DNA from: Myxococcales bacterium
GTDB lineage: Bacteria; Myxococcota_A; Polyangia; Polyangiales; Polyangiaceae
Direction of reading: 5' to 3'
DNA length: 53,941 nt
NCBI GenBank assembly: GCA_003154095.1
Contig: PMCK01000589.1
Location: 11,568-65,508, forward strand
Shown here: positions 13,681 to 52,869 of the stretch, piece by piece
How positions within the stretch are numbered: the stretch's first letter is position 1
Layout of the letters: each line of letters starts with the position of its first letter
The notes under the pieces: model-generated
Databases searched by the model: none
What the model was told of the DNA's origin: nothing
The model's input: only the letters and a program-made list of their open reading frames with translations
Translations under genes and position numbers: made by a program

Positions 13681-14709
13681 ATGGCCCGCGGCGAGTTGAT
13701 GAAAAAGCTTCTGGCAAGTTACGGACGAGATGATGAGTTTCGTGCGGTTGCCGAGCTAATCATTGATGAGGAAGAGCAGAAGAAGAACCGGGTCTTGGCT
13801 CGTACTCTGCGGCGGACCCTCGACAACGCGGTCTCGAGCGGGTCGTCATCCAGCACCAATGCGTCGAACGCTGTCGAAGGTTCCCGATCGGACGCGCCGC
13901 GGAGTCTTGCGCCGCTGTTGCCGTTTCCAGATCCGGCAAGCGAGTATGTGGAGCGTAAGGTCCCGACGCACGCGCTGCCCGATATTGCGCTCACGGAAGA
14001 CAATCAGGAAGTCATTCGTTTATTGGTGCTGGAGTTTCGGAAGGGCGAAGAGATCCGTTCACGCGGGTTACCGCTCCGAAGTAAGCTGTTGTTCTGCGGT
14101 CCGCCGGGATGTGGCAAGACGCTTTGTGCCGAAGTATTTGCTCAAGAGGTTGGCTTGCCGTTGCTATTGGTCAAGCTCGATCGGTTGATTTCGTCCTACC
14201 TGGGTGAGACTGCAACCAACATTCGGAAACTCTTTGAGCTGGCTCGAAAGCAACCGTGCATTTTGTTCTTGGACGAGTTCGACGCGATTGCTCACACTCG
14301 GCAAGACAACTCTGAACATAGCGAACTGCGGCGCGTGGTGAACAGCTTGTTGCTGTTCATCGATCGAATGGAGCCTCGTGGATTTCTAATCGCGGCAACC
14401 AACCTCGACGCTTCACTCGACGCTGCAGTTTGGCGCCGCTTTGATGAAGTGATTTGGTTCGACAAGCCAGACCGCAAAGCGATTGCCGACTTCGTTGCCA
14501 TGAAGTTCAAGAATGTCGAGCGCGCGTTCCGAATCGAGCCGCACCTAAAGGCGCTGCAAGGCTACTCCTACGCCGATATTCAACGGGTTTGCATTCAGGC
14601 CATGCGCACTGCTATCGTCGACCGGCGGGAGGTAGTTTCGAACAGTGACTTTGCGACAGCAATCGGGAACGAGGTGCGGCGGCACCACGGGAAGAAGACA
14701 CGGCGCTAG
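13681..14709 (+). CDS. ietA: AAA+ ATPase, IetA-like
   Basis: GPPGCGKT Walker A, ILFLDEFDAI Walker B, AATNLDASLDAAVWRRFDEVIWF; adjacent to subtilase. Confidence 0.8.
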   Translation: MARGELMKKLLASYGRDDEFRAVAELIIDEEEQKKNRVLARTLRRTLDNAVSSGSSSSTNASNAVEGSRSDAPRSLAPLLPFPDPASEYVERKVPTHALPDIALTEDNQEVIRLLVLEFRKGEEIRSRGLPLRSKLLFCGPPGCGKTLCAEVFAQEVGLPLLLVKLDRLISSYLGETATNIRKLFELARKQPCILFLDEFDAIAHTRQDNSEHSELRRVVNSLLLFIDRMEPRGFLIAATNLDASLDAAVWRRFDEVIWFDKPDRKAIADFVAMKFKNVERAFRIEPHLKALQGYSYADIQRVCIQAMRTAIVDRREVVSNSDFATAIGNEVRRHHGKKTRR

Positions 14710-14725
14710 GCGGGGACGCTAAATC

Positions 14726-17077
14726 GTGGCGCGACTGGAGCATCTCAGGCTGTTGCGCTTGCCGGAGCGGTTCGAGCGCCGCAAGCGACCAGGGTTCTCC
14801 AAACCACCTGCGCGAGAGCCTGGACAGCACGCCTCGAAACTGAGCACCGAGCTGGCCGAGGCAGTTGCGCAGCAAAAACGCCGGCGGCGGCCTACAGTGG
14901 ATCCGTCGTTGATCCTGCGTGTGCGCCTGTCTGGTGCAATCGCCGACGTTGAATGGGAGAAGTTGGGCCTGACGGTCTTGTCGGTCGACGCGGATCGTTC
15001 GCTGGTATTGTTCTCCTCTTCGGATGAGTTGACCGAATTTAGCGCCCGCATCGCGGCCTATGGGGCACCCATTCCAGCAGGACAGAAGCATCCGCAATAC
15101 AGCGGACTCGTGTCGACCATAGAGTCTATTGGATCCGTGGAACCGAAGGATCGGATCGGTCCTAGGTTGCGCTCAGCGGGGTATTCTGACGTTTCGGATT
15201 TCGACGACGAGACTCTGCTGTTGGACTTGGAACTCTGGGAAATTGGCGATCACGGCACGCGAGAAATCAGGCTTCACAAGATCAAGTTCGTTGTCCAGGC
15301 CGCAGAGGGTGAGGTTCTCGACCAGTACAATGGCCCATCGATCTCGGCTCTCCGTATCCGTGTCAACGGCAAGCGCGTTGGCGAACTGCTCACAATCGAG
15401 GACGTAGCGTCCATCGATCTCCCTCCCGATCCCGACCTCACAACGGCGAGTGTGATCGAAATGTCGCTCCCGCAAATGCCGTTGCTCAACGACATTGCCG
15501 ACGGCGTTCCAGTGGTTGGGATTGTTGACAGTGGCGTAGCGTCGCATCCGCTGCTCAAGGACGCTATTGTGGCTGCCATCGCTGAGCCGGAGTACTTAGG
15601 CACTCACGATGGCTGCGGGCATGGAACGCTCGTCGCTGGCGTGGCCACCTTCGGAGATCTCCGCGCCCAGTTGGCTGATGGGACGCTGACACGCGTGGCA
15701 CGCATTGCCTCAGCGAAGGTCCTCAACGACAGCGGCAAATTTGACGACTGCTCCTACGTCCCCAAGCAAATGCGCAAAGTGATCTCTCACCTGCATTCGG
15801 AGTGCGGTTGCCGAATTTTCGTTCTTTCGTTGGGACACGCCAATCAACTTTTCGACGGACACAAGGTGGGCCCCTGGGCAGCAACATTGGATGAGTTGGC
15901 GCGAGAGCTCAATCTGCTCATCCTCGTCGCCGCAGGCAATCGAAAGAGCCTGGATTCCGAGACTGTAGAGGAGTGGGTGACCGGATACCCGCAATACTTC
16001 AAGAAAAAAGGGGCCGCCTTCTGCGAGCCCGCGGGTGCAATGAATGTCATCACGGTTGGTTCGTTGGCGCATGGCACCGGAGTTGAAGAGGCTCATCAGG
16101 AAGACGCCAAAGTCCGCACAATCACTGAGCGTTGCCAACCATCGCCGTTTACGCGGGTTGGTCCAGGCATTGCTGGTGCAATCAAGCCAGACGTAGTGGA
16201 CTTTGGCGGTACTTTGGTCTTTGACGCAGTTGTGCCCAAAGCAAAAGGAGGCGGCGAGATTCCCGCAACGGGAATGGTCTCCTTGAACCACAAGCCAGCA
16301 GACCGACTGTTCGCTTCCTCGTCGGGTACATCCATGGCCGCACCGTTGGTGGCGTTCAAGGCCAGTCAGCTTCTTATGCGGTTTCCAACCGCTGGTGCCA
16401 ATTTGCTTCGCGCCCTGCTCGTTGGAGGGGCTGCGGTGCCGCGACCCGCAGCTGAGCTCCTAGCGCGCGTCTCGAAAGATACAGCGCGACACGTGTGCGG
16501 CAATGGCTTGGTAGATCTCGAGCATGCCGCATACTCAGACAACAATCGCGTGGTCCTATACGCCGAGGACGAACTGACTTTCGACCATTTTGCCGTGTAC
16601 GAAGTGCCCGTCCCCAAGGAGTACCAATCGGAGAAAGGTCGGAGGGAGATTCGTGTGACTTTGGCCTTCGACCCGCCCGTACGCCACCGGCGCGTGGACT
16701 ACCTGGGTACCACGATGAGCTTTCGCTTGGTCCGCGGGTGCAAGGCGGATTTTGTCTTTGAGCATTACCGCAAGCGTTCCAGCGCCGAGGGGAAACACCC
16801 CGATCTACCAGGCCGCTACAACTGCAAGCTCGAACCGGGGCCCAATATTCGTGACAACGGCACTGTGCAGACCGCGGTAGCCAACTTCGCGAAGGATGTC
16901 TCAGAATATGGCGACACCTACTACGTCGTCGTGCGCTGCGAGGCTGGCTGGGCTAGTTCAGTTTCCGTACAAGACCAGAAGCAGCGCTACGCACTTGCCG
17001 TGGAGCTCCGCCATGCCGCTCCCATTAGGCTTTACGAACGAGTCCGCATGCGGCAGCGCTTGAGGCGTGAAGCCTGA
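14726..17077 (+). CDS. ietS: subtilisin-like S8 serine protease, IetS-like
   Basis: Triad motifs: GIVDSGV (Asp), GCGHGTLVAG (His), SSGTSMAAPLVA (Ser); VAAGN oxyanion-hole Asn. Confidence 0.85.
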   Translation: MARLEHLRLLRLPERFERRKRPGFSKPPAREPGQHASKLSTELAEAVAQQKRRRRPTVDPSLILRVRLSGAIADVEWEKLGLTVLSVDADRSLVLFSSSDELTEFSARIAAYGAPIPAGQKHPQYSGLVSTIESIGSVEPKDRIGPRLRSAGYSDVSDFDDETLLLDLELWEIGDHGTREIRLHKIKFVVQAAEGEVLDQYNGPSISALRIRVNGKRVGELLTIEDVASIDLPPDPDLTTASVIEMSLPQMPLLNDIADGVPVVGIVDSGVASHPLLKDAIVAAIAEPEYLGTHDGCGHGTLVAGVATFGDLRAQLADGTLTRVARIASAKVLNDSGKFDDCSYVPKQMRKVISHLHSECGCRIFVLSLGHANQLFDGHKVGPWAATLDELARELNLLILVAAGNRKSLDSETVEEWVTGYPQYFKKKGAAFCEPAGAMNVITVGSLAHGTGVEEAHQEDAKVRTITERCQPSPFTRVGPGIAGAIKPDVVDFGGTLVFDAVVPKAKGGGEIPATGMVSLNHKPADRLFASSSGTSMAAPLVAFKASQLLMRFPTAGANLLRALLVGGAAVPRPAAELLARVSKDTARHVCGNGLVDLEHAAYSDNNRVVLYAEDELTFDHFAVYEVPVPKEYQSEKGRREIRVTLAFDPPVRHRRVDYLGTTMSFRLVRGCKADFVFEHYRKRSSAEGKHPDLPGRYNCKLEPGPNIRDNGTVQTAVANFAKDVSEYGDTYYVVVRCEAGWASSVSVQDQKQRYALAVELRHAAPIRLYERVRMRQRLRREA

Positions 17078-17139
17078 TATGCCCCTCCGTGTCCGGCGTC
17101 AAGACTCTGTAATTCCCATCCGGACATATCGAGCCTTCA

Positions 17140-17817
17140 ATGACCACGGATCTCGGCGAAGCCATGAGCGCCTATTGGGGACTGCGGGACATCTGTCGCA
17201 AGTACTCGCTCGCTGTCGATGGCCTGAGCGATACCGAGGTCGCTGCCTGGTTCATATACCTCAACAGGACCGGGTACAACGGCCTCTATCGGGTCAATAA
17301 GCAGAACGTTTTCAATGTTCCGTTTGGTGGGTACAACAACCCAACCATCTGCGATGCCGAGCACCTCCGAACGTGTTCACAGGCGCTGCAAGGAGTCGAC
17401 CTTCGTCATGCGTGCTTCGATGACGTTATGGCTGACGCAAAGCCGGGTGACTTTGTCTACTGCGATCCACCGTACGTTCCAATATCGGCGACGTCTTCGT
17501 TCACTAGCGATACTTCTGACGGCTTCGGCATAGACGAGCATCGTCGACTGCACGACATTGCTCTCGACCTAGCGAAGCGTGGGGTCAACATTTTGATTTC
17601 CAACTCTGCTGCGCCAGCAGTCTTGGAACTATACCGTGACCATCCGTTCCACATAGAAACCATCGCTGCGGCACGCAATATTGCGGCTAACGCAGCAAGT
17701 CGTGGTGAAGTGACCGAACTCCTGATCCAGAACTATCAGCCCGTGAAACCACAGATAGCTGGTCCCCTACTCGCTGCGGGAGCGTCTCTGCGTCACATTC
17801 GCGACACAAGCTGTTGA
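17140..17817 (+). pseudogene. D12-class N6-adenine DNA methyltransferase, 5'-truncated (motif I missing)
   Basis: WFIYLNRTGYNGLYRVNKQNVFNVPFGGY and FVYCDPPY Dam-like motifs; the N-terminal FxGxG region is absent. Confidence 0.7.
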
Positions 17818-27273: not shown

Positions 27274-28380
27274 CTACGCGGCGAGAATGTCAGCAACGCG
27301 GTCACCGCATGACCCAACGTCGTAACCCAACGACGAAAGCTCGCGACGTAGCGGCGCAGCCGTCATGACGTCGAACAGGCGAGCCATGCGAGGATCGTTG
27401 AGCTCGTCGAGGGGAACTACGAGATCGTAGCGTTCCTCGGCAATGGGTACGAAGGTGAGACCAAACACAAGTGCCGCATCGCGAGTCGCAATGCCCACGT
27501 CGGCGGCTCCGATGCTGACCGCATGAGCCACTTCCAGGTGCCCCGACACTTGAATTGCTGCGTCGCGAGCAATATCGACGGATAGCCCAGCTCGCTTGAG
27601 TTCTCGATCCAGCAATCTTCTAGCGCCTGAGCCGGGTTCTCTGGAAACTACGCGCAGGCCCTTCTTTCCAAGGTGCGACGCCTGGGATACTCCCATTGGA
27701 TTGCCGCGGGCGACAACGAGGCCAGCTTCCCAACGCGCAAAAGTAATAAGGGCAACTGCGCGTTTCGGGCTGTGCCGACGCACATCGGGAACATTCGACT
27801 CCCCAGTTTTTAGGTCCACGAGGTGAACCCCCGCTACATGGGTCTGATGCTGACTGAGCGCTTCGAGCGCCTTCATGCTGGAACGTCCTAACCAAAGGAA
27901 ACGTCCTGGTCCGGAGTGAGCGTTGAGCCTATCGGCGAGTAGCCCGAGGGCTGGGGCGCAACCCATGATGACAACGTTTTGTCGCAACTCGGAATCTGGA
28001 CGAAGTTGCTCGACTTCGACTTTACCACTCTTGGTCTTCGCGACCAGTGCGTCTGCTGACCGAGCAATGCCTTCGCGGTCGAGCGAATAGGACAGCCATC
28101 GTCCTGAAATATGAGCGAGTGCAACACGACCCGCGTTGGCTTCAGTCACCGCCTCTGTCATGAGCCGAGCATCGACCGTCGTTGCTCCAAATAGAGACTC
28201 GACAGGACAATCGAGTGCTCTCGCGATGCGCAAAGCGACATCAACGGCGGGAATGGCCCGCCCGGCTTCGATAGCGTGTACACTTTGTCGGGTAAGGCCG
28301 ATAGTTGCAGCTAGTGTCACTTGCGAGAGGCCACGCGCTTCGCGCAGCTCACGCACACGGTTTGACCCTGCGTCTGCCAT
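27274..28380 (-). CDS. XRE-family HTH regulator with PBP-like (molybdate-type) ligand-binding domain
   Basis: HTH VRELREARGLSQVTLAATIGLTRQSVHAIEAGRAIPAVDVALRIARAL; PBP-like LVVARGNPMGVSQASHLGKKGLRVVSREPGSGARRLLDREL. Confidence 0.85.
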   Translation of the reverse strand: MADAGSNRVRELREARGLSQVTLAATIGLTRQSVHAIEAGRAIPAVDVALRIARALDCPVESLFGATTVDARLMTEAVTEANAGRVALAHISGRWLSYSLDREGIARSADALVAKTKSGKVEVEQLRPDSELRQNVVIMGCAPALGLLADRLNAHSGPGRFLWLGRSSMKALEALSQHQTHVAGVHLVDLKTGESNVPDVRRHSPKRAVALITFARWEAGLVVARGNPMGVSQASHLGKKGLRVVSREPGSGARRLLDRELKRAGLSVDIARDAAIQVSGHLEVAHAVSIGAADVGIATRDAALVFGLTFVPIAEERYDLVVPLDELNDPRMARLFDVMTAAPLRRELSSLGYDVGSCGDRVADILAA

Positions 28381-34657: not shown

Positions 34658-37159
34658 TCACCACAAGCCGACTTTTGCTGAGAGCGATAAGGTCCGGGGC
34701 GCACCGGCAAGCAATCCCGAGCCACTTCTATAGTAGGCCCAATAACGCTCATCAGCGAGGTTGGTGATAAACAGCGTTGCGCTCACCTTATGTTGCGACA
34801 CGAGTCGCTCGTATCTGGCTCCAGCATCGAATGTAACGGATGAGTCAAAACTGTCCGTGTTCAAGTTATCGACGTAGCGTTTCCCGTTATAGTTCGCACC
34901 AAGATCGAGTGACAGCCCGCCCGTGAAGGGTATGGCATAATCAAGAAACAATCGGCCCATTTTTTCGGGAACATTGACTGGCACTTTGCCCTCGAGGGCG
35001 GGGTTGTTTCGGGCCTTGGTAATCTCGGCGCGCATGAGAGTGAAACCGCCGATCAGCGAAAAGCCCCCCGCGACCGGGCCAGTGGCTGTAGCTTCCAACC
35101 CTTGATTGGTCTGACGACCGTCTTGCTTGTAGTAGTTGTCAGTTGGGTCAAGGTATTCGCTAACTTGGTTGATACGGAAAGTAGCCAATGTCCATTGCAG
35201 ATCGGCAAGGTTTCCTTTGGCCCCGAACTCAATTTGCCTACTGTGACTCGACGGCATGATCTGATATGCGTTTTGAGCATTCGCGGGTGCCGTACCTCCC
35301 TGCGACAAGCCTTCCATGTACGAGCCGTACAACGCGAGCGGTACAATTGGATGCACCACGAAACCAACGCTCGGTGTAAACGCACCCTGCGTCGAATCCG
35401 TGGGTCCGTTGCCGGGGCATTGACCGGCAGTCGTGCAGACACTGGAAAACGCCCAGGCTTTTGCACGAATTTGGGCATAGTTGATTCCCGCAAGCACGGT
35501 CAACCAACGCCACACGGCGCGGTCACCTAGGATGAGCGAATCATAGTAGGTACGGCTCGCATTGGCCGACCCGGCATTGGCCCAATTCGGAGCAAATTGC
35601 ACGTTGAGCGGCGCGCCGACGTTTGAGGTGCCTAGCGCTGTCTTAACGTCATTGCCCCTTTCGTAATAAAACGTGGTTCCATTGTAGCCAGTGGTAACGT
35701 GGTGCTTGAGCGGCCCAGTCGCGAATTGAATGTCGGCAAGCGCATACGCTGAGTCGGTGCGCTCGAATTGTCGCGGAGTTGTCACATAGGTTTCTGTGTA
35801 GTCGCCTTGGTTATCAGTGAACGTGCCAAACGTGGTGTTGTAGTCGCGCCACATGGTGCCATGTCGATACGCGGCGCGCACAGTGATCGCGTCCGACACC
35901 GGGGCTTTTGCCGCCGCACCTACGAGTATCTTGTTCGACTCGCTAAATGTCCAGGGTTGCCCATATTGCCAGCGCGGATTAATGATGGAAGCGTCCGGGA
36001 CGAATATGCCCTTCGATGGATTGACGTCGATATAGTTTTGCATCCCTTGGACATAGAAGTGTTGGTAAGCGATATCTGCACTCAATTCCGTTTTTTCAGA
36101 CGGTCGATACGTAGCCATGGTCGTCAGGAGCGTGCGACGTTCAGTGCTGCCAGCTACAAACGTCTTGCCATATTCCTCATGGACCACACTTCGATACCTA
36201 ACCTGATCGGAATTGAGCAACGGAACAGTACCGCTGAAGTCGCCAGTGGCATAGTTGATCCCACCACCATAGTCACCGATGGCTATGCTGCCGTAAGGTT
36301 TGGGCTTGGGTCGCTTCGAAACATAGTTGACTGTACCGCCGAGCGTGCCAAATCCGTACAAGAGACTGCTCAGGCCGTTCATGGCCTCGACGCGCTCCAC
36401 GTTCTCGAACCACGGAAACGTGAAGCCCCGGTCGACCAGACCATCGCGCAGTACACCCTGGTCACCCATGGTTCCTCCTCGAACCATCGTACGTGACATG
36501 CCACCACCTCCCGGCGCGAGTGGGCTCATCAAATCAGAGACGGTTGGATTAGTTCGCAACACTTCTTGTTCTGTATGAGCATTGCGGTTCTCCCAAAGCG
36601 CCGCTCGGGTAACGTTGAGCGAAAAAGGCACGTCTTTCAGCGAAAGCTCCCCGAATGCCCCCAAGTAACCCCGGTTGGCGCGATAGCCGTCGTCGGCACT
36701 ACCCGGTCGTTTGCCGGCGACCGTTACCTCAATTGTCTCACCCTCCGCGGGTACGTCACCAACGGATGGCGGCGGAGTTGGTACGGCTGAGATAGGCGTT
36801 GGACTCTGGGGTGCTGGCGGAGTCCTGTTCGATGTGGGGGATGTGGCTTTGCTAGGTGTCTGTGAATCGCCAAGTCCTTGTGGGCTTGCATTCGGTGTCT
36901 CGGGCGCACTGTCATCAGTTGCTTGAACGCCGCCAGTAGTTCCCTCCGGTGCGCCGCCATCAAGTGACGGGGCACTATTGCTCTCGGCCGCTTCCGCCGA
37001 AGTGCTGGCGGACGCAGAACCCGCAGGCGTCGCCTCTGTGTTCGTTGCTGGCTGAGCGTGCACGAAGCGAATACACAAAAGTATTGCCACCGGACACATT
37101 GCCGTGGCGCACAACACGAAGCCCTTTGATCCCAATCGAGAGTGAATCTGTCTCATCAT
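34658..37159 (-). CDS. TonB-dependent siderophore/metallophore receptor
   Basis: Plug NPTVSDLMSPLAPGGGGMSRTMVRGGTMGDQGVLRDGLVDRGFTFPWFENVERVEAMNGLSSLLYGFGTLGGTVNYVSKRP; barrel; likely start ATG 37159/37156 with GGAGAAGGG RBS. Confidence 0.9.
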   Translation of the reverse strand: MMRQIHSRLGSKGFVLCATAMCPVAILLCIRFVHAQPATNTEATPAGSASASTSAEAAESNSAPSLDGGAPEGTTGGVQATDDSAPETPNASPQGLGDSQTPSKATSPTSNRTPPAPQSPTPISAVPTPPPSVGDVPAEGETIEVTVAGKRPGSADDGYRANRGYLGAFGELSLKDVPFSLNVTRAALWENRNAHTEQEVLRTNPTVSDLMSPLAPGGGGMSRTMVRGGTMGDQGVLRDGLVDRGFTFPWFENVERVEAMNGLSSLLYGFGTLGGTVNYVSKRPKPKPYGSIAIGDYGGGINYATGDFSGTVPLLNSDQVRYRSVVHEEYGKTFVAGSTERRTLLTTMATYRPSEKTELSADIAYQHFYVQGMQNYIDVNPSKGIFVPDASIINPRWQYGQPWTFSESNKILVGAAAKAPVSDAITVRAAYRHGTMWRDYNTTFGTFTDNQGDYTETYVTTPRQFERTDSAYALADIQFATGPLKHHVTTGYNGTTFYYERGNDVKTALGTSNVGAPLNVQFAPNWANAGSANASRTYYDSLILGDRAVWRWLTVLAGINYAQIRAKAWAFSSVCTTAGQCPGNGPTDSTQGAFTPSVGFVVHPIVPLALYGSYMEGLSQGGTAPANAQNAYQIMPSSHSRQIEFGAKGNLADLQWTLATFRINQVSEYLDPTDNYYKQDGRQTNQGLEATATGPVAGGFSLIGGFTLMRAEITKARNNPALEGKVPVNVPEKMGRLFLDYAIPFTGGLSLDLGANYNGKRYVDNLNTDSFDSSVTFDAGARYERLVSQHKVSATLFITNLADERYWAYYRSGSGLLAGAPRTLSLSAKVGLW

Positions 37160-37241
37160 TGCCCTTCTCCGACTTGAACCGCCATCTCGGCACCAGAGCG
37201 GGAGGTGCTCTGCTGTGGCAACCGCATCGAACAGAAGTGAG

Positions 37242-37257
37242 AGCAGACACCGTGCCA
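37242..37257 (-). promoter_or_regulatory. sigma-54 -24/-12 promoter for TonB receptor operon (TGGCAC-GGTGT-CTGCT)
   Basis: GG-N10-GC spacing on minus strand, about 83 nt before start. Confidence 0.65.
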
Positions 37258-37386
37258 ACTGGGGCGATTCCCCCTCAGGATGCCAAACATAACGGCAAGG
37301 GCAGCGAATGCTTCGGTATCTTGTGCGTCATTAGTCGAATGCAGCCAACGCGGAGCGTTCGTCAGTGAACAACCCCTGTTGTGAAC

Positions 37387-37400
37387 GTTCAATATCGTAC
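37387..37400. promoter_or_regulatory. VnfA-like UAS GTTC-AATATC-GTAC
   Basis: Matches motif recurring upstream of vnf-island genes; about 130 nt upstream of the sigma-54 match. Confidence 0.55.
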
Positions 37401-37437
37401 ACCGCGAATGTTCCGCACGAGCGCCCAACGTGCTCCG

Positions 37438-38277
37438 CTAACTGAGCTCGCCCAGAAACACCCTGCGCACTTTGGCTCCGAGCGCATCAATTACCGTCAC
37501 GAGGAGCAAAATCACGAGCAGCAGCGCCAGGGCCTCGCGATACTCAAACAGGTGAAAGGCAGTCACAATCTCGAGCCCAATGCCTCCGGCGCCCACGGCA
37601 CCGAGCGTCGTTGCTTCGCGAATGTTATGTTCAAAACGGTAGAGTGATACATCGGCCATTCGGGGATGCAATTGAGGCAAAATGCCGAAGCGTGCGACCC
37701 CGAGAGAACTAACGCCTTCGCTCCTTAGAGCTTGCAATGGCCCCGGCTCGACGTGTTCCGTGAGCTCGGTGAAGAATTTGCCGAGCATTCCCGTCGAATG
37801 AGCAGCTAGTGCAAACACACCTGCCAAAGAACCGAACCCGAAGGCTGCCACGAACAAGATGCCCCAAACCAGACTAGGAATGGCCCGAAGTGCGTTGAGC
37901 AGCAGGTGTATTGGGGTCGTTACGATCATTGGACACAAGGTTCGCGCTCCCAGTAGTCCAAGAGGAATGGCAAGGAGAGTACTCAGCAACGTGCCCGCGA
38001 CGCCCATCAGTACCGTGTCGATAATTGGGCGCATCCAACTATGGCACCGGGAGAAGTCCGGTGGAATCGAATCGCGAAGGAGCGTAACTACGGTTGCGGC
38101 GGCAGATCCGTACTGGTCCCGGGCAAAGCCTCCGGTGTTCCCGAAGGAACCTACCGCGAGTGCGACGATGCCGAGCACGACAAGATATCGAACGGCGCTG
38201 CGTTTGCGACGCCATTGATCGAGGCACTGTTCGTAGTGCTCCTCGAGAACTGGCGTGAAGGCTCGCTCTTCGTTCAT
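37438..38277 (-). CDS. PhnE-like ABC transporter permease
   Basis: DTVLMGVAGTLLSTLLAIPLGLLGAR...LLNALRAIPSLVWGILFVAAFGFGSLAGVFALAAHSTGMLGKFF. Confidence 0.85.
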   Translation of the reverse strand: MNEERAFTPVLEEHYEQCLDQWRRKRSAVRYLVVLGIVALAVGSFGNTGGFARDQYGSAAATVVTLLRDSIPPDFSRCHSWMRPIIDTVLMGVAGTLLSTLLAIPLGLLGARTLCPMIVTTPIHLLLNALRAIPSLVWGILFVAAFGFGSLAGVFALAAHSTGMLGKFFTELTEHVEPGPLQALRSEGVSSLGVARFGILPQLHPRMADVSLYRFEHNIREATTLGAVGAGGIGLEIVTAFHLFEYREALALLLVILLLVTVIDALGAKVRRVFLGELS

Positions 38278-39149
38278 AGATTCGAGAATTCCTCCGGACT
38301 CGCTGCCCGGACCGACTCCACCCAGTTGCGCACGATATCTACATCCGAATCTTTGGCTCCGATGAACGATTCTGCCCGAAAGACGCCAAGTGCCTTCCCA
38401 TCGCGAAGCTGTAAAAACGCCTCTTGGAGCTTCAGTCGCAACTCAGCAGAGACGTTTTCGCGCACCGTCCACATGTATTCCGGAATCGCCATCGACTCAG
38501 CCAATACTCGAACACTACTCGGGGCAATTTTGCCTTCTTTAGTGAGCCGCTTGAAGATAGGCAGCGAAAGGCCTCCAGCGTCCACCTTGTGATTGGCAAC
38601 GGCCAGGGCAACCGCATCGTGAGCGCCCAACACGACTTTCGTGTAGTCCCTGCCCGCAGCCAAACCCGCGCTCAAGAGTTGATATCTTGGTACCCACGTG
38701 CCCGAGGTCGAGGCCGGATCCCCGAAGGCAACGGACTTGCCCCGCAGTTCTTCGAACCGCTGCACCGGGCTTTCGCTCGAAACGACGATGACCGCCTGGA
38801 ACGTGGGACCAACGTCAGGGTGCGACGGGCGAGCGATCGGTTGAATGTTTGCATGACGTTTTTGGAGAACATACGTTACCGGGCCGAGATAAGCGACGTC
38901 GATGCGTCCAAATCGCAGAGCCTCGCCGGTTGCCGCATAGTTGGCCCCAACCACAAGTTTCACGGGAACGTTAAGCTTCTTTTCGAGATATGCGCGCATG
39001 GGTTCATTCAGGCGCATCACCTTTGGTGCAGATGCACCAGGCAAAAGCCCCACCGTCAATACCTTGGGGTTCCGTTTGGAACACCCGAAGATCGACAGTA
39101 AGCCTACGAGCAGGAGGAGCCATCGGGTCAATGGTTGCGTTTTTGCCAC
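38274..39149 (-). CDS. PhnD-like oxyanion substrate-binding lipoprotein
   Basis: Lipobox IFGC; YLEKKLNVPVKLVVGANYAATGEALRFGRIDVAYLGPVTYVL; RGKSVAFGDPASTSG. Confidence 0.85.
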   Translation of the reverse strand: MAKTQPLTRWLLLLVGLLSIFGCSKRNPKVLTVGLLPGASAPKVMRLNEPMRAYLEKKLNVPVKLVVGANYAATGEALRFGRIDVAYLGPVTYVLQKRHANIQPIARPSHPDVGPTFQAVIVVSSESPVQRFEELRGKSVAFGDPASTSGTWVPRYQLLSAGLAAGRDYTKVVLGAHDAVALAVANHKVDAGGLSLPIFKRLTKEGKIAPSSVRVLAESMAIPEYMWTVRENVSAELRLKLQEAFLQLRDGKALGVFRAESFIGAKDSDVDIVRNWVESVRAASPEEFSNL

Positions 39150-39183
39150 AGGTATCTACGTTTCTCGTTCATTGCTGAATGAT

Positions 39184-39927
39184 TCAAGTCCCAAACACTA
39201 GTCGCTCCGCGGAAGCGTCGAATTCTGGCGACCTGCCGTTGAACACGACGGTCCCCTCACACAAGCCGATGACCCGATCAGCTACCGCTCTTGCCGTGGC
39301 CAGCTGATGTAGTGTCAGTACAACCGCAAGCTTCGTGTTCTCTACGAGCTGTCGGAACTCATGACACAAGTAGCGAACGAAGGCTGGATCAACCGACGAA
39401 AAGGGCTCATCGCCGAGCAATAGGCTTGGTTCACGCACGAGGGCGCGGGCGATGCCTACGCGCTGCTGCTCGCCGCCGCTCAGTCGTTCGACACGCGAGC
39501 GGGCGCTCGGCGCCAAACCGACGGAGGCGAGTGCACGAATCGCCAGGCGTTCTTGCTCGCGAGAAAACGGGTTGAGCGCAAACGGGCTACACGCGCCGGC
39601 AAAACCCAGAAGAACGTTATCGAGAGCCGACAGTCGACCAATCAAGGCGCGCTCTTGAAATACCGTCGCCAGGCGTCGCTGATGCTCAAGTAAAACCCTG
39701 GGTTCCGCTAGCTCCCCGAGGCCCAAAATCGAAATGGTTCCTGCACTACAAGGGAATAGCCCATTGAGCGCACCGAGTAGCGTTGTCTTGCCAACTCCAG
39801 ACCGGCCAACGATGACCGTGACCTCGCCACCCGCGATCTCGAATGAGATATCTTTCAATATCAATCGATTCGAGCGCTTTACATCGAGTCGCTCGACACG
39901 AATCTTCATTGTCTTTGTGGGATCCAT
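39184..39927 (-). CDS. PhnC-like ABC transporter ATPase
   Basis: GRSGVGKTTLL, LSGGEQQRVGIARALVREPSLLLGDEPFSSVDP. Confidence 0.85.
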   Translation of the reverse strand: MDPTKTMKIRVERLDVKRSNRLILKDISFEIAGGEVTVIVGRSGVGKTTLLGALNGLFPCSAGTISILGLGELAEPRVLLEHQRRLATVFQERALIGRLSALDNVLLGFAGACSPFALNPFSREQERLAIRALASVGLAPSARSRVERLSGGEQQRVGIARALVREPSLLLGDEPFSSVDPAFVRYLCHEFRQLVENTKLAVVLTLHQLATARAVADRVIGLCEGTVVFNGRSPEFDASAERLVFGT

Positions 39928-40013
39928 TCTGCTGGCACGTCATGCGCGCGAAAACGAACGCATGCCCAATCAGTCGCGAGGTTAAAATGAGTACATTCGC
40001 CAAGAGCACAAAC

Positions 40014-40029
40014 TGCATTTGCTGTACCA
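40014..40029 (-). promoter_or_regulatory. candidate sigma-54 promoter for phnCDE-like operon (TGGTAC-AGCAA-ATGCA)
   Basis: GG-N10-GC spacing on minus strand, about 87 nt before ATPase start. Confidence 0.5.
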
Positions 40030-40082
40030 ACTGGACAAAGCGCTGGTCCGTCGCAAACATGGCAACAGACAGCTTGCCAAAC

Positions 40083-40096
40083 GTACGTGTAAGTAC
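40083..40096. promoter_or_regulatory. VnfA-like UAS, exact GTAC-GTGTAA-GTAC
   Basis: Matches the described A. vinelandii VnfA site GTAC-N6-GTAC. Confidence 0.6.
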
Positions 40097-40111
40097 ACAC
40101 GAGACCCAAGT

Positions 40112-40125
40112 GTTCGTTTTGGTAC
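40112..40125. promoter_or_regulatory. VnfA-like UAS GTTC-GTTTTG-GTAC
   Basis: Recurrent motif in divergent intergenic region. Confidence 0.55.
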
Positions 40126-40179
40126 GATTGGCTTCATGGTATGGTTGTCGCTCATCCTTTATCGGAGGCTTTCGCGCCT

Positions 40180-40195
40180 TGGTGTGCGCTTTGCA
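40180..40195 (+). promoter_or_regulatory. sigma-54 promoter for the five-gene cluster (TGGTGT-GCGCT-TTGCA)
   Basis: GG-N10-GC with TTGCA; UAS sites 55-85 nt upstream. Confidence 0.7.
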
Positions 40196-40238
40196 AAGTG
40201 GCCATTGACCGCGCGTCGAGCGCGGGGCGGAGCGTCCG

Positions 40239-41309
40239 ATGAATTCAAGAATTTGCGAAACTCCTGGGGCGCAGAGCCGCAACACGTTGGAAACGTCCGC
40301 GAACGCAATGCCTTCGCTCGGACGGCTCGATTTTCTCGGACGCATGCCAGTGCCCGTGCGACGACTATTCAAGGCCGGACTTGATCGAGCGGTAGCGAAA
40401 GAAGCCGAACAACGGGCACCCCTTGAATGCTGTTTTCTGCGTGGTGGTGAATGGTATCAGCCGTTCGATGCCCTCGCTGTTGCCAGAAACGTGGACGACG
40501 TACCGGAGATGATCGTCACTACGCTGCAGGAGGATATTCTCTCGCCACGGCTATTGTCATTCTACAAGGCAGGCCCAAACTGCGCGGACTCCTCGAACTA
40601 TCACCCTGCATTTACATCGGGCGAGCTATTCGATCCAACGGGGACATTTCGAACGTTCGCCGCGGTTCCGTTCGTCTTCTTGATTGATGTCCAGCGGCTC
40701 GCGGGACGCCCAATGCCTAGAATATGGTCAGACTTGCTTCAGCCGCGTTGGCACCGAGAAATCGTATTCGGCGGTTGGCGACCCAACGAATCCGTTGCCT
40801 ACAAGGACTTCAATTCTTACCTGTTGCTCTCGATCCTCCAGGAGTTTGGGGTTTCTGGATTGTTGGCTTTTGCTTCCAACGTCCATCACTTACAACACAA
40901 CGTTCGCACGACGACACTCTTCGGCACTAATAGCCGGCATGCAGCAACCATTGCGGTTCTGCCCTGGCTCCACGCTGAAATGTGCCCCCGGCGCGATAAT
41001 ACGCGCGTCGTGTGGCCCGAGGATGGCGCACTCGCGATGCCTATTGGCTATCTCACGAAGGGGGAGCGACCCACGCGTGTAGCACCACTCATTGACTTTG
41101 TGAGGGGTCCCGAACTTGCTCGACTGTTAGGTCGCAATTGCTACCCAGCTGCAGGCGCCGACGTGCATAACCCATTGCCCGTCAATGCGTCGTTCAAGTG
41201 GCTTGGCTGGGAGTACATCTACACTCATGATTTAGCCGAGGAATCCATCCGTGCGGCTCGCCTGTTCTTCTCGGCCCTGAACCCATCGGAACTGCGAGCA
41301 TGCGCCTAG
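40239..41309 (+). CDS. substrate-binding-protein-fold protein without evident signal peptide
   Basis: PFVFLIDVQRLAGRPMPRIWSDLLQPRWHREIVFGGW...RVVWPEDGALAMPIGYLTKGERPTRVAPLIDFV...FKWLGWEYI; alternative starts 40308, 40344. Confidence 0.7.
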   Translation: MNSRICETPGAQSRNTLETSANAMPSLGRLDFLGRMPVPVRRLFKAGLDRAVAKEAEQRAPLECCFLRGGEWYQPFDALAVARNVDDVPEMIVTTLQEDILSPRLLSFYKAGPNCADSSNYHPAFTSGELFDPTGTFRTFAAVPFVFLIDVQRLAGRPMPRIWSDLLQPRWHREIVFGGWRPNESVAYKDFNSYLLLSILQEFGVSGLLAFASNVHHLQHNVRTTTLFGTNSRHAATIAVLPWLHAEMCPRRDNTRVVWPEDGALAMPIGYLTKGERPTRVAPLIDFVRGPELARLLGRNCYPAAGADVHNPLPVNASFKWLGWEYIYTHDLAEESIRAARLFFSALNPSELRACA

Positions 41310-42001
41310 TTACAGTTGCCGGTGGCCCATCGGTTGGCAAGACGTCGATCATCTTGCGCGCAAGTGAGTTACTGCACGAGCAGGGCCTGCGCGTCGGGGT
41401 CGTCAAATTCGATGCACTCTCAACGCGCGACGACCAACTCTACCGCGAAAAAGGGATTGACGTTACCGTCGGGTTATCGGGCTCGCTCTGCCCCGATCAT
41501 TACTTCGTATCGAACGTGCAGGATTGTCTCGAGTGGGGCAAACGGCAAGGTTTCGACCTTCTATTCACCGAGAGTGCAGGACTTTGCAGTCGATGCTCGC
41601 CGCATGTCAAAGGAGTGCTCGCCATTTGCATCGTGGACGCGTTGGCGGGCGTGCATACCCCCAAAAAGATAGGGCCAATGCTACGGCTTGCTGACATCGT
41701 GGTAATTACGAAAGGAGACGTCGTATCGCAAGTGGAGCGGGAGGTATTCGCTTACAACGTTCGCCTCGTTTGCCCCGGCGCACATTCGCTATTTTGCAAC
41801 GGTATCACTGGGCAAGGAGCAGCGCGGCTCGTGGATCGATTGTTGTGCGCTGGAGCAACGGAAAGCCTCGAAGGAAGCCACTTGCGCTTTCCAATGCCTG
41901 CGGCTGTCTGCCCGTATTGCGTTGGTGAAACCGTGATTGGTGAGACGCACCAGCGGGGCAATGTAAAGAAACTGCAATTTGCCGATGCCGAGGTCAAGTG
42001 A
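41300..42001 (+). CDS. P-loop GTPase, HypB/UreG/CobW-like, with CxxC motifs
   Basis: VAGGPSVGKTSII, ESAGLCSRCSPHVKG, ADIVVITKGDVV, VCPYCVGET. Confidence 0.75.
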   Translation: MRLVTVAGGPSVGKTSIILRASELLHEQGLRVGVVKFDALSTRDDQLYREKGIDVTVGLSGSLCPDHYFVSNVQDCLEWGKRQGFDLLFTESAGLCSRCSPHVKGVLAICIVDALAGVHTPKKIGPMLRLADIVVITKGDVVSQVEREVFAYNVRLVCPGAHSLFCNGITGQGAARLVDRLLCAGATESLEGSHLRFPMPAAVCPYCVGETVIGETHQRGNVKKLQFADAEVK

Positions 42002-43008
42002 GCGATCTGTCCGAGCTACCGATGAGCGCGCTTCTCGCGAAGCACCCGTGTGTCAGGGAATTCTTCCGATCGGTTGGCCTCAATGTATCTGAAACGAGAC
42101 GGACGTTTCGCGTGTGGCTGAGTCAACTGGCGGACGAAGCCGTGTTCGACGCCGGGATGGATCGTGAGCAAATTCTCTCGCACATCGAACGCCTAATCGT
42201 TGAGGTCGCAACCTTAGAAAGCACCCGTCTGTCGCCGATTCAGCGTCTAACGATTCGAGGAGGCCGCGACAAGGCGGGTCACGCCGAAAACGTGTGTATC
42301 GAAGCCGGCGCTGGCCAAGTCGTGTGCATTGTTGGCCCGACGGGTTCGGGGAAGAGTCGTTTGCTCGCCGATATTGAGTGTTTGGCCCAGGACGACACCC
42401 CCACGGGGCGTACAATCTTGCTGGACGGTGAGTTGCCTTCCAACGACACACGCTTCTGCCTGGATCAAAAGCCTGTCGCGCAGTTGTCGCAGAATATGAA
42501 CTTCGTTGTCGATCTGAGCGTGCAGGAGTTCATATCTATGCACGCCCAATGCCGCATGGTCGCTGACGTGGCGGCGCAAACCGCACACGTGATTGCGTGT
42601 GCCAATCGGCTCACGGGCGAGACATTCTCAGCCGATGTCTCCGTCACACAGCTTTCCGGCGGTCAGGCGCGCGCGCTGATGATTGCCGATGTGGCGCTTC
42701 TTTCGGCTTCCCCTATCGTGCTCATCGACGAAATCGAGAATGCTGGCGTCGACCGCAAGCAAGCCCTCGAACTCTTGATCACAGGCAACAAGATTGTATT
42801 TATATCGACCCATGATCCGTTGCTCGCATTGCGCGGACACCTGCGAATCGCCGTGCGCAACGGGGGGATCGCGGAAATATTGGTGACAACTGATGCTGAG
42901 CGTAAGAACCTCGAAGCCATCGAAGCCATCGATGTGACACTATCGAAGATTCGGGACCGACTGCGCCAGGGCCAGAGAATCGAGGAGCCCATCGAATGGC
43001 CACAATGA
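41998..43008 (+). CDS. soluble ABC-type ATPase with N-terminal ScdA/DUF1858-like domain
   Basis: GPTGSGKSR, LSGGQARALMIADVALLSASPIVLIDEIENAG; N-term MSALLAKHPCVREFFRSVGLNVSETRRTFRVWLSQL. Confidence 0.75.
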   Translation: MSDLSELPMSALLAKHPCVREFFRSVGLNVSETRRTFRVWLSQLADEAVFDAGMDREQILSHIERLIVEVATLESTRLSPIQRLTIRGGRDKAGHAENVCIEAGAGQVVCIVGPTGSGKSRLLADIECLAQDDTPTGRTILLDGELPSNDTRFCLDQKPVAQLSQNMNFVVDLSVQEFISMHAQCRMVADVAAQTAHVIACANRLTGETFSADVSVTQLSGGQARALMIADVALLSASPIVLIDEIENAGVDRKQALELLITGNKIVFISTHDPLLALRGHLRIAVRNGGIAEILVTTDAERKNLEAIEAIDVTLSKIRDRLRQGQRIEEPIEWPQ

Positions 43009-43580
43009 ATTTCTCGATTCCTCCCGCTTTGGAACTGTTGCTCAACCGACGCTCGGTTCGTGGCCTTGTTGCTCCAGGTCCCGATGACGCAGAGCTTGCT
43101 TTGATTCTCCAAGCTGTAACCCGCGTCCCCGACTTTCAACATTTGAGGCCGTATCGATTCTTGTTTGCTCGGGACGAAGGGCTGACTCGCCTCGGTGAGG
43201 CGATGCAACGCGCCGCTGTCCGTATGGGTAAGACCGGGGACGTTGTAGAGCGGGCACCTCGAATGCCACATCGGGCACCGCTCGTTGTCGTTGCTATATT
43301 TAGTCCAAAGCCGAGCCGCGTCGTCTCCGTCTTCGAACAACAACTATGTGCAGCTTGTGCCACGCTGACACTACAGTTGGCTGCCAATTCCCTAGGGTAT
43401 GGGAGTGTCTGGCGAACGGGCTGGCACGCTAGTGAGCCAACATTTCACGAAGAGCTTCGTCTGACGACGAATGAAACCATCGTCGGCTTCTTGTACTTGG
43501 GTACGACGCCAAAGGGCTGTGACGCGGGGCAATCGGTCACCATCGAAAACTCGCCATTGCCCGAAATTGCCTGGATCTAG
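42996..43580 (+). CDS. nitroreductase-family protein
   Basis: LLLNRRSVRGLVAPGPDDAELALILQAVTRVPDFQHLRPYRFLF...CATLTLQLAANSLGYGSVWRTGW...VGFLYLGT. Confidence 0.85.
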   Translation: MATMNFSIPPALELLLNRRSVRGLVAPGPDDAELALILQAVTRVPDFQHLRPYRFLFARDEGLTRLGEAMQRAAVRMGKTGDVVERAPRMPHRAPLVVVAIFSPKPSRVVSVFEQQLCAACATLTLQLAANSLGYGSVWRTGWHASEPTFHEELRLTTNETIVGFLYLGTTPKGCDAGQSVTIENSPLPEIAWI

Positions 43581-43587
43581 GTGAATT

Positions 43588-44733
43588 ATGAAATGGGGCA
43601 TCGAATTCGAGTACTTGCTCATCGACACGGCTCCGAGCACGTTCGGCCGAGTACGAGACTTCACCAATCTTGTGTTCGAGGACATGAGGCGCATCCTCGC
43701 CGAAAAGCCTGGGCGAAACGATCCGGCAATGGCAACCGGTGATCTCGGAATTCGAACCGGGTACTGGTATCTCGAGGGGGACGAGCGGTTCGATGACAGT
43801 GGTCAATTTCGTACCTTCAAGGTCAAGGGCGTGGAAGTTCGTACGCCACCCCGAAGCACGGTGGGCGACGCGTGTAAGGCACTGCTCGCGATCGAACAGG
43901 AACTCGCTGAGAGTTTGGCCATGCATGACCTGGGTCTCGCTATCGTTGGCTTCAATCCGATCCAATGCAGTTATGACTTCGACCCGCCACTGAATGCTTG
44001 GGAAAGGGACCTGCGTCAAGCAGACCGGGGCTATGATGGTTCCCTAGTTTCTACCCTGAGTTATGGGCCCGACATCAATCTTTCGAGTGACTCGTGGTCG
44101 ATGCAGCAGCTCCTCGACAACGCTCGCAAGGTCAACTGGTACGCTCCGTACATCGTTCCCTTCAGCTTCAGCAGCCCATTTTTCGGGAATGCACCGTGGA
44201 ATGGCTGGTCCGTTCGCACGCACAAGCGGGCGCCGTTGCGACCTGCCGTTAGGTACTTCTGCGATCCCACCGAGTATGAGGCACTATCGCAAACCTCGAG
44301 TCTCGTGCACCCTGCGCGGCTGGCGAGTGAAGTTGGCCGACTCGAGTTCAAAGCGTTCGACGCCATCACCTGCGTCGAACGCTTGCGTGCGTGTTGTCAT
44401 CTCTTGCACGGCCTTTGTCTCGACCGCGAGCTAGAAGAGCGGAGCGAAACCGCGGATCTCATACTCTACGAGCGAGCATGCCGCCGGGCATTCGATGACC
44501 CGCTAATCTTTGAAGGTGCCAAACGGGTCATTGCGGCAGCAAGCAGGGCCCTGTTGCGTGAGGGGCACCGTGAGGCCTGCGAGTCGCTGGGACTCCTGGA
44601 ATCTTCGCTATGGCGGAAACGAACTCCCGCACATGGAATGCTGGCGGCATTCAAAGAAACCGGTCTCACTTACACGCCAGGTGGATTGCGCCTTCGACCT
44701 GCACTCATTCGGTGTTTGTCTAAGGGCGCGTGA
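43588..44733 (+). CDS. glutamate-cysteine ligase family 2 (GCS2)-like enzyme
   Basis: MKWGIEFEYLLID..., KGVEVRTPPRSTVGDACKALL, RLEFKAFDAITCVERLRACCHLLHGLC. Confidence 0.75.
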   Translation: MKWGIEFEYLLIDTAPSTFGRVRDFTNLVFEDMRRILAEKPGRNDPAMATGDLGIRTGYWYLEGDERFDDSGQFRTFKVKGVEVRTPPRSTVGDACKALLAIEQELAESLAMHDLGLAIVGFNPIQCSYDFDPPLNAWERDLRQADRGYDGSLVSTLSYGPDINLSSDSWSMQQLLDNARKVNWYAPYIVPFSFSSPFFGNAPWNGWSVRTHKRAPLRPAVRYFCDPTEYEALSQTSSLVHPARLASEVGRLEFKAFDAITCVERLRACCHLLHGLCLDRELEERSETADLILYERACRRAFDDPLIFEGAKRVIAAASRALLREGHREACESLGLLESSLWRKRTPAHGMLAAFKETGLTYTPGGLRLRPALIRCLSKGA

Positions 44734-44830: not shown

Positions 44831-45832
44831 TCATTTGGCATTGGCGGCACGTGGCAACGGTTCACTTCGCGCCGCGAGACACTCGACGAGTGCCGGCACC
44901 GCCTCGAACATATCCGCGATGAGACCGTAATCAGCCCAGCGAAAGATCGGTGCTTCGGGGTTCTTGTTGATTGCGATGATGACCTTTGCACCTTTGATTC
45001 CGGCCATGTGCTGCACGGATCCGGAAATTCCTATGGCCAGGTACAACTGCGGCGTGACGACCTTTCCGGTTTGTCCAATTTGGCAGTCGAACGAAGCGAA
45101 ACCTGCAATGCATGCGGCTCGTGTGGCGCCAATGACCGCTCCCAATTCGTTAGCAAGCGGCTGAAGGACTTGGAAGAACTTCCCCTTAAGGTATCTGCCT
45201 CCGGAGACGATGACCTGAGCTTCCGTCAATCGTGGCGATTCGGTGTCAGCTTCCGTCAATTCGACAAGTTCGATGGAATTCGCGGCAATGCTCATGGGAC
45301 TGATCGAACAGAATTCGATGGGCGATTCACCGGTGACAATTGCGGCGGGCGCGAAATGGCTTGCACGAACCGTGACGAGTTGTATCGGCGTTTCGATACG
45401 AAGCCAACCCGTTACGTTGCCGGCATACAGTGAACGTCGAAATGCGAGTGTGCCCTCGTGCTCGCAGACGCCCGAACATTCCGCGACATACCCGGCATCA
45501 AGCAACCCGGCTAGCCTCGGCAGCAATTCGAGCCCGAGGCGGTCCGCAGCCGCTGCCACGAGCGTGTAGTCTCTGGCAATCGGAGCGACACTATCAACCA
45601 ATGTCTCTGGCACGTTGAGATCAAACGAATCGCCTTCGAGTACGAGCACCCGTCGAGCTCCGTAACGGGCGAGCAATCCGGCAGCAATTTGACCCTCCCT
45701 TCGGGCAATGACAAGGACGTCGTACGAACCCTGGAGATACGAAGCGGCAGTGCGAACCATAGCGATGCTTGGCCCCACTGAGTGGCCACCAGTGCAAGTT
45801 GCCGCGTCGACTATCAGAAGTGCCTCTGGCAT
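44831..45832 (-). CDS. fixB: electron transfer flavoprotein alpha subunit (FixB/EtfA)
   Basis: C-terminal LYLAIGISGSVQHMAGIKGAKVIIAINKNPEAPIFRWADYGLIADMFEAVPAL. Confidence 0.9.
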   Translation of the reverse strand: MPEALLIVDAATCTGGHSVGPSIAMVRTAASYLQGSYDVLVIARREGQIAAGLLARYGARRVLVLEGDSFDLNVPETLVDSVAPIARDYTLVAAAADRLGLELLPRLAGLLDAGYVAECSGVCEHEGTLAFRRSLYAGNVTGWLRIETPIQLVTVRASHFAPAAIVTGESPIEFCSISPMSIAANSIELVELTEADTESPRLTEAQVIVSGGRYLKGKFFQVLQPLANELGAVIGATRAACIAGFASFDCQIGQTGKVVTPQLYLAIGISGSVQHMAGIKGAKVIIAINKNPEAPIFRWADYGLIADMFEAVPALVECLAARSEPLPRAANAK

Positions 45833-45842
45833 AGCTGAGATC

Positions 45843-46664
45843 TCACAATCTTGCTGAGTGCTTCGTGAGTACGTCTGCGAGCTCCGCGACGTCCTTTAGC
45901 ATCGTTACATTGGCTCGAGCGGGTAGGCCCTCGAACTTGAAATATCGCGTCGACCGTTGTATTCCCGGCAAGAGAGTTTCGAGGGCGATGCGTTCGAGCG
46001 GCTTTTTTCGTGCCTGCATGGTGGCGGGCAATGCCGCAAAACGGATGCCATCGTAGTACTCGAAGTCATATGCGGTAAGGCTCGAGAGCGCGCCATCCGG
46101 TGCCATCACGCGCAAGTCCACGCTGACGACCGCGGGCAGCCGCACCCGCAATAGGCAGCTCGCTCCGTCTGCCTGGCGCCGCACGAGGAGCGCGCCGTCA
46201 TGTTCGATGATGCTCGTTGCCGCTGACACCATCGGGGTGTTTAGCATTGTTGCCAACATGGGGCCTACGGTTGCCCCCTCACCATCGACGGTCTTTCTTC
46301 CAAGCAATATGAGGTCGGGTTTCTCCCGGCGGGTAATCTCCCGAAGCGCCTGCGCAACAATTCGCGCATCGAGCAACTCATCGGAAGCTTCGATATGAAT
46401 CGCCCGGTTCGCGCCACAAGCTAACGCCGTTCTCAGTATCGCTTCGGATTGAGGCGGCCCCAAAGTGACGACGACGACTTCACCCTGGCGCACCTTTGGG
46501 GTCACCCCATTCTCCGTTAGCCGGAGCGCGGCTTCGACCGCCGCCTCGTCGAAGGGGTTGATCTTGAACTCGAGGCCATCAGTAACGACTTGATTACCCT
46601 GCGCCTTGACGTCGCTTGCACTATGGGGGTCAGAGACACGTTTGATCGGGACGAGTATTTTCAC
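45843..46664 (-). CDS. fixA: electron transfer flavoprotein beta subunit (FixA/EtfB)
   Basis: VKILVPIKRVSDPHS...FKINPFDEAAVEAALRL...DLILLGRKTVDGEGATVGPMLATML; GTG 46664 preceded by AGAGGT; alternative ATG 46682. Confidence 0.9.
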   Translation of the reverse strand: MKILVPIKRVSDPHSASDVKAQGNQVVTDGLEFKINPFDEAAVEAALRLTENGVTPKVRQGEVVVVTLGPPQSEAILRTALACGANRAIHIEASDELLDARIVAQALREITRREKPDLILLGRKTVDGEGATVGPMLATMLNTPMVSAATSIIEHDGALLVRRQADGASCLLRVRLPAVVSVDLRVMAPDGALSSLTAYDFEYYDGIRFAALPATMQARKKPLERIALETLLPGIQRSTRYFKFEGLPARANVTMLKDVAELADVLTKHSARL

Positions 46665-46692
46665 GGCACCTCTTGTACTCATCAGGTCATTA

Positions 46693-46708
46693 CGCACGGA
46701 TCATGCCA
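46693..46708 (-). promoter_or_regulatory. sigma-54 promoter for fixAB (TGGCAT-GATCC-GTGCG)
   Basis: GG-N10-GC spacing on minus strand just upstream of fixA. Confidence 0.5.
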
Positions 46709-46773: not shown

Positions 46774-46787
46774 GTTCTGAAATGTAC
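46774..46787. promoter_or_regulatory. VnfA-like UAS GTTC-TGAAAT-GTAC
   Basis: Recurrent motif, intergenic upstream of fixA. Confidence 0.55.
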
Positions 46788-46802: not shown

Positions 46803-46816
46803 GTTCCCATGGGTAC
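46803..46816. promoter_or_regulatory. VnfA-like UAS GTTC-CCATGG-GTAC
   Basis: Second copy 29 nt from the first. Confidence 0.55.
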
Positions 46817-49374: not shown

Positions 49375-52644
<3,270 letters not shown>

Positions 52645-52722: not shown

Positions 52723-52736
52723 GTTCCCGAATGTAC
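52723..52736. promoter_or_regulatory. VnfA-like UAS GTTC-CCGAAT-GTAC
   Basis: First of three copies in vnfD/nifX-like divergent spacer. Confidence 0.6.
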
Positions 52737-52753
52737 GCGGGGGACTATCTTTG

Positions 52754-52767
52754 GTTCCGTTTGGTAC
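52754..52767. promoter_or_regulatory. VnfA-like UAS GTTC-CGTTTG-GTAC
   Basis: Second copy, 31-nt period from first. Confidence 0.6.
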
Positions 52768-52789
52768 AGAGCAAGCGCGTCAGGGCCCC

Positions 52790-52803
52790 GTTCGAACATG
52801 TAC
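52790..52803. promoter_or_regulatory. VnfA-like UAS GTTC-GAACAT-GTAC
   Basis: Third copy, 36-nt period from second. Confidence 0.6.
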
Positions 52804-52853: not shown

Positions 52854-52869
52854 TGGCACTCAAGTTGCA
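52854..52869 (+). promoter_or_regulatory. sigma-54 promoter, near-perfect TGGCAC-TCAAG-TTGCA, for nifX-like gene
   Basis: Matches TGGCAC-N5-TTGCA, 55 nt upstream of ATG 52925. Confidence 0.8.

Follow-up and report, generated by a model that had tools for sequence, protein, structure and literature searches.

In Azotobacter vinelandii, the motif recovered for VnfA1 by ChIP-seq is GT(T/A)C-N6-GTAC, which lies upstream of sigma-54 promoters, mostly as similarly spaced pairs (PMC9542535). One of the targets is the Avin_02430/Avin_02450 intergenic region, where ChIP-seq, Cappable-seq and qRT-PCR revealed two divergent, VnfA1-dependent sigma-54 promoters; the products of the operon Avin_02430-02390 are an SBP, a GTPase of the nickel-binding type, an ABC ATPase, a nitroreductase and a glutamate-cysteine ligase (PMC9542535). 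The same bacterium bears vodABC (Avin_02540-02560), a predicted vanadate ABC transporter of which VodA is the SBP, and in R. palustris an SBP of the vnf cluster annotated as phosphonate-binding, RPA1385, was shown to bind vanadate (PMC3223731). The window analysed here (the whole stretch of 53,941 nucleotides) contains an intergenic region that we regard, with a probability of about 0.9, as a bidirectional enhancer-type control region through which VnfA and sigma-54 would govern two divergent operons. The motif, its pairing, the sigma-54 partner and the status of the orthologue of the plus-strand operon as a VnfA1 target were already known from A. vinelandii; what appears to be new is the predicted placing of a vod operon and an Avin_02430-type operon under one enhancer, together with the evidence that the plus-strand operon is probably soluble. 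The region is composed as follows:

39928-40238 (311 bases), intergenic control region between the PhnC-like gene (minus strand) and the SBP-like gene (plus strand)
40083-40096, no strand assigned, UAS 1, GTACGTGTAAGTAC, VnfA-type with palindromic half-sites
40112-40125, plus strand, UAS 2, GTTCGTTTTGGTAC, of the form GTWC-N6-GTAC, 29 bp from UAS 1
40029 to 40014, minus strand, -24/-12 (sigma-54) element TGGTACAGCAAATGCA, putative promoter of the vod/phnCDE-like operon, rank 7 in the window
40180 to 40195, plus strand, -24/-12 element TGGTGTGCGCTTTGCA, putative promoter of the plus-strand operon, rank 10 in the window

The initial annotation had placed two UASs at 40083 and 40112, and back-to-back sigma-54 promoters at 40014 (minus) and 40180 (plus); all four were found there, the GTTC half-site of UAS 2 falling within the published VnfA1 motif and both promoter elements having the canonical GG-N10-GC spacing. 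The two UASs lie between the outward-facing elements, which are correctly oriented and at a plausible distance. The ranks 7 and 10 refer to the ~108,000 positions of the window (both strands) scored with a sigma-54 PWM approximated from the published consensus; with this matrix, both promoters of the region, which read TGGT instead of TGGC, scored below those of vnfD and the TonB receptor operon. It might be argued that VnfA acts at just one of the divergent promoters and that the other -24/-12-like element arose by chance, since a competitor at 40137 (score 10.5) lies close to the plus-strand element (11.5) and comparable scores are reached elsewhere in the window. This is unlikely: in the orthologous region of A. 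vinelandii both divergent sigma-54 promoters depend on VnfA1 (PMC9542535), both elements of the window are suitably placed and oriented, and a search for sigma-70-type promoters in 37240-40300 found none that might act in their stead.

On the minus side of the control region, three genes scored as PhnC, PhnD and PhnE:

39184-39927, minus strand, VodC/PhnC-like ABC ATPase, with vnf-linked homologues at 48-56%
38274-39149, minus strand, VodA/PhnD-like vanadate-type SBP with a lipoprotein-like signal, 62% identical to an A. vinelandii vnf-cluster protein
37438-38277, minus strand, VodB/PhnE-like permease, assigned by family scoring

A phosphonate-family SBP with an export-type signal, a permease and an ATPase are all present. 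The A. vinelandii protein that the SBP matches is encoded downstream of vnfDGK-nifX and, from this position in the vnf cluster, was taken to be VodA (Avin_02550). A PhnD-like protein (at least 50% identity) was present no more than 10 kb from vnfD in 21 of 31 VnfD loci, a few of these proteins being VnfZ-like second copies; when a second PhnD-like protein (VnfZ) was sought in the present genome none was found, VodA being the only PhnD-like copy. The label 'phnCDE-like' given earlier to these genes holds as far as the Phn-family match is concerned, but the phosphonate reading it implies does not agree with the identity of the SBP to a VodA-type protein of a vnf cluster. These comparisons support the view that the three genes specify a predicted vanadate-type transporter, VodABC, and not a phosphonate transporter.

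On the plus side, the following genes were recognised:

40239-41309, plus strand, soluble SBP_bac_6-family protein without signal peptide (Avin_02430-type; Pfam E 7e-52)
41300-42001, plus strand, HypB/UreG/CobW-type GTPase with conserved CxxH, CxxCxxH and CxxC (Avin_02420-type)
41998-43008, plus strand, soluble ABC-type ATPase (Avin_02410-type)
42996-43580, plus strand, nitroreductase-family protein (Avin_02400-type)
43588-44733, plus strand, glutamate-cysteine-ligase-like protein (Avin_02390-type)

The five genes match Avin_02430-02390 in order, with identities to the A. vinelandii proteins of 53, 72, 63, 60 and 52%; the cluster, first described as unknown, has described orthologues, although its proposed membership of the regulon stands. 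The first gene has a match in 22 of the 31 VnfD-bearing genomes. A hydrophobic signal-type N-terminus was absent from the SBP-like protein of the window and from 20 homologues (VodA proteins mostly have one), no permease was found in the operon, and the ABC ATPase showed no clear membrane segments. Since an ABC importer would comprise an exported SBP and a membrane permease, and neither is encoded here, the operon is probably soluble and not a transporter. In the GTPase, the motifs C64-x2-H67, C96-x2-C99-x2-H102 and C204-x2-C207 are kept in nearly all of 21 sequences. Upstream of the orthologous SBP operons of Azotobacter, Azomonas, Plasticicumulans and UBA5811, a UAS pair 29-31 bp apart was found with divergent -24/-12 elements, several of these UASs carrying one mismatch and others being exact; at the same position Rhodoblastus, UBA1303 and BP5.bin101, all alphaproteobacteria, yielded no such pair.

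Three further regions of the window bear UASs and sigma-54 elements:

52723-52803, plus strand, three UASs (52723, 52754, 52790) in the vnfD/nifX-like intergenic region, from the motif scan
52612-52627, minus strand, -24/-12 element TGGCATGGCTAATGCT of vnfDGK, rank 3 in the window
52854-52869, plus strand, -24/-12 element TGGCACTCAAGTTGCA of the nifX-like gene, rank 2 in the window
49375-52623, minus strand, vnfD-vnfG-vnfK structural genes
46774-46787, plus strand, UAS before etfBA, from the motif scan
46803-46816, plus strand, second UAS before etfBA, 29 bp apart from the first
46693-46708, minus strand, -24/-12 element TGGCATGATCCGTGCG of etfBA, rank 12 in the window
44831-46697, minus strand, etfB-etfA, electron transfer flavoprotein pair
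37387-37400, plus strand, UAS before the TonB receptor operon, a perfect site
37357-37370, plus strand, near-UAS GTTCGTCAGTGAAC with 1 mismatch, 30 bp from 37387
37242-37257, minus strand, -24/-12 element TGGCACGGTGTCTGCT of the TonB operon, top sigma-54 score of the window
34658-37258, minus strand, TonB-dependent siderophore-type receptor, listed ORF start overlapping the promoter

The architecture seen at 39928-40238 had been said to recur between vnfD and the nifX-like gene, and it does so with three UASs and the promoters ranked second and third in the window; the UAS regions of etfBA and of the TonB receptor are additional to those of the initial annotation. The true start of vnfD is probably downstream of 52612, and that of the TonB receptor, in view of the overlap with its promoter, probably downstream of ~37230. 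Neither fixC nor fixX was recognised near etfB-etfA among the genes scanned; etfBA is likely a VnfA-controlled electron supply for the vanadium nitrogenase. The TonB receptor/Peripla_BP_2 operon carries its UAS and near-UAS upstream (37242-37400); operons for TonB receptors belong to the class B targets of VnfA1 in A. vinelandii. The fourth region of the genome with paired motifs is on contig C621, between divergent vnfH-like and vnfE-vnfN-like genes, which were named from their translations rather than by family search. Elsewhere in the window, 10616-17817 encodes a QatA-like ATPase, an IteA-like ATPase with an IteS-like S8 peptidase and a Dam-family methyltransferase, a possible defence island.

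The genome-wide specificity of the motif was borne out for pairs but not for single copies. Single GTWC-N6-GTAC sites were not enriched (173/159 matches versus 226/228 for the reversed control); under the refuting condition set in the initial annotation a lone site therefore carries no weight, and the lone sites at 10336, 28515, 43641 and 49361 were therefore not counted as regulatory. The site at 28515 lies upstream of a one-component regulator with HTH_3 and PBP_like (PF12727) domains (27274-28380), which could be a metal-oxyanion sensor. Pairs (two motif copies with a gap of 10-30 bases) occurred five times in the whole 8.66-Mb genome, in four control regions, all of them vnf. The bare count is modest, as the reversed-control pair pattern gave three matches in the same 8.66 Mb; the confinement of all five pairs to vnf control regions is the stronger argument. 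A count over 143 further genomes of this phylum gave ~11 unique pairs, at 0-1 per genome, and against this background the Poisson probability of five pairs is ~2e-7. The exact pair was found in only 11 of the 31 proteobacterial or archaeal vnf genomes (16 matches versus 4 for the reversed control). Of the 12 highest sigma-54 scores in the window, six lie inside the four UAS regions, which make up 1.8% of it, a figure to be taken as descriptive since these regions had been picked by their UASs.

As for the activator, rpoN was found in this genome and a VnfA-like gene lies on contig C227, represented by its N-terminal half, which ends at the contig edge with the HTH/DNA-binding domain beyond it. 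This fragment is closest to vnf-linked bEBPs, its GAF part showing 61% identity to the vnfD-adjoining bEBP of Azospirillum sp. TSO22-1 and 57% to the Magnetospirillum counterpart; in its Cys motif, YCDGGEC, one Cys of the CxCxxxxC of Azotobacter/Azomonas-type VnfA is not kept. Within C227 (1-4360) the gene adjoins SBP-like, ABC ATPase and CxxC-GTPase genes, a set similar to the plus-strand operon that looks like its paralogue; no GTWC-N6-GTAC site was found between the gene and this set. Contig C395 carries a NifA-family bEBP fragment ~5 kb from a NifD-like gene, and the genome probably has a molybdenum-nitrogenase cluster as well. The idea that the C227 and C395 fragments form a single vnfA was rejected, their AAA+ parts overlapping and differing. 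The sites could in principle be used by another bEBP, AnfA- or NifA-like (that of C395, for example), so that the response would be to nitrogen or molybdenum and not VnfA-specific; the genome contains many bEBPs, including the one just mentioned, and in A. vinelandii VnfA1 has targets in common with its paralogue VnfA3 (PMC9542535). We hold this to be very improbable: no NifA-type TGT-N10-ACA site was found in 39928-40238, the motif is that obtained by ChIP for VnfA1, its pairs are limited to vnf regions, and the nearest relatives of the C227 fragment are vnf-linked.

In a VnfD tree, the window sequence was placed beside Azospirillum among alphaproteobacterial VnfDs (SH-aLRT 92, long branch). 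No VnfD/NifD-like match at E<=1e-60 was found in 385 other genomes of the same phylum, an absence that would be surprising in Pseudomonadota; the host is apparently not a member of that phylum, and its vnf system was apparently acquired horizontally. The abundance of FHA/GAF-type bEBPs and the style of the lipoproteins may point to Myxococcota, while a 16S search gave no taxonomic name; in the library searched, no paper on a vnf system in Myxococcota was found. The position of VnfD within the alphaproteobacterial sequences, the lack of a comparable protein in any other of the 386 sampled genomes of the phylum and the fragmentation of the assembly (714 contigs) would also fit a binning artefact, that is, a proteobacterial contig mixed into the assembly, which would make the claim about the host wrong and leave the control region real. 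Such contamination is improbable, though, because the composition of the vnf part matches that of the other contigs of the genome: its GC content is 56.4% versus 57.0%, and its tetranucleotide profile correlates with theirs at r 0.92, compared with 0.62-0.72 against proteobacterial vnf loci. In addition, vnfH/E/N and the VnfA fragment lie on two further contigs of similar GC.

The preferred reading is that the VnfA-like activator, a bEBP that combines GAF and AAA+ domains with an N-terminus bearing Cys residues, would bind both GTWC-N6-GTAC sites cooperatively and contact sigma-54 RNA polymerase at the two outward-facing -24/-12 promoters, ~55-100 bp off on each side, activating them in response to vanadium and molybdenum. 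The minus promoter would then drive vodCAB, and hence vanadate import, while the plus promoter would drive the soluble five-gene module (SBP-like, GTPase, ABC-type ATPase, nitroreductase and GCL-like proteins), with a presumed role in intracellular vanadium handling; vnfDGK, the nifX-like gene, vnfH/vnfEN and etfBA would also be driven by this activator, as would probably the operon of the TonB receptor. The original proposal that the vanadium-nitrogenase regulon includes both divergent operons is supported by the exclusiveness of the pairs, the A. vinelandii precedent, the conserved UASs and promoters, the VodABC orthology and the presence of a VnfA-like gene and rpoN. More tentatively, the plus-strand operon may constitute a cytosolic pathway for vanadium processing and delivery. 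Its SBP-fold protein would be a soluble carrier of vanadate and its GCL-like enzyme a thiol-ligand synthetase, the nitroreductase might reduce vanadate, and the HypB/UreG-like GTPase with its conserved Cys/His metal motifs and the soluble ABC-type ATPase would complete the set; through the shared enhancer, vod import would be coupled to processing for FeV-cofactor assembly, and the whole regulon would have crossed phyla together with its preserved control sites. A VnfA/sigma-54 regulon can thus be read from sequence alone in a host that is apparently non-proteobacterial, down to the five motif pairs of its 8.66-Mb genome. The putative vanadium-handling operon becomes a clear target, being probably soluble, recurrent with vanadium nitrogenase and, on the present prediction, wired directly to a predicted vanadate importer, and if the soluble-module reading is true, the preparation of vanadium for the FeV-cofactor would be directly testable in A. 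vinelandii.

Compared with known systems, the vanadate importer genes vupABC of Anabaena variabilis likewise lie inside the vnf region, but they are of the tungstate-type transporter family, and there the vnf genes are repressor-controlled, with no VnfA (PMC4284476). In Pseudothauera rhizosphaerae (vnfZ-vnfA-like genes), a VnfA-type site flanked by divergent sigma-54 elements separates a PhnD-like gene from the SBP operon opposite; unlike the VodA of the window, however, the PhnD-like protein lacks a signal peptide and its gene is followed by a vnfA-like gene, so that it is VnfZ-like and not an importer, and the locus was rejected as an earlier case of vod lying opposite the SBP operon. Among the vnf loci examined, no other was found in which vod and an Avin_02430-type operon are immediately face to face. 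The Avin_02430/Avin_02450 region shares with the window two VnfA-type sites (~31 bp apart there) between divergent -24/-12 promoters and the orthologous five-gene operon on one side; one of the two A. vinelandii sites has a mismatch (GTTC..GAAC), whereas both window sites fit the ChIP motif exactly, and the divergent partner is the uncharacterised Avin_02450 there and the vanadate-importer-like vodCAB here. The latter genes resemble vodABC (Avin_02540-02560) and RPA1385 in being a phosphonate-family SBP/permease/ATPase set at a vnf cluster, but while vod is usually codirectional with, and downstream of, vnfDGK-nifX, that of the window has its own UAS and putative sigma-54 promoter, and diverges from the Avin_02430-type operon.
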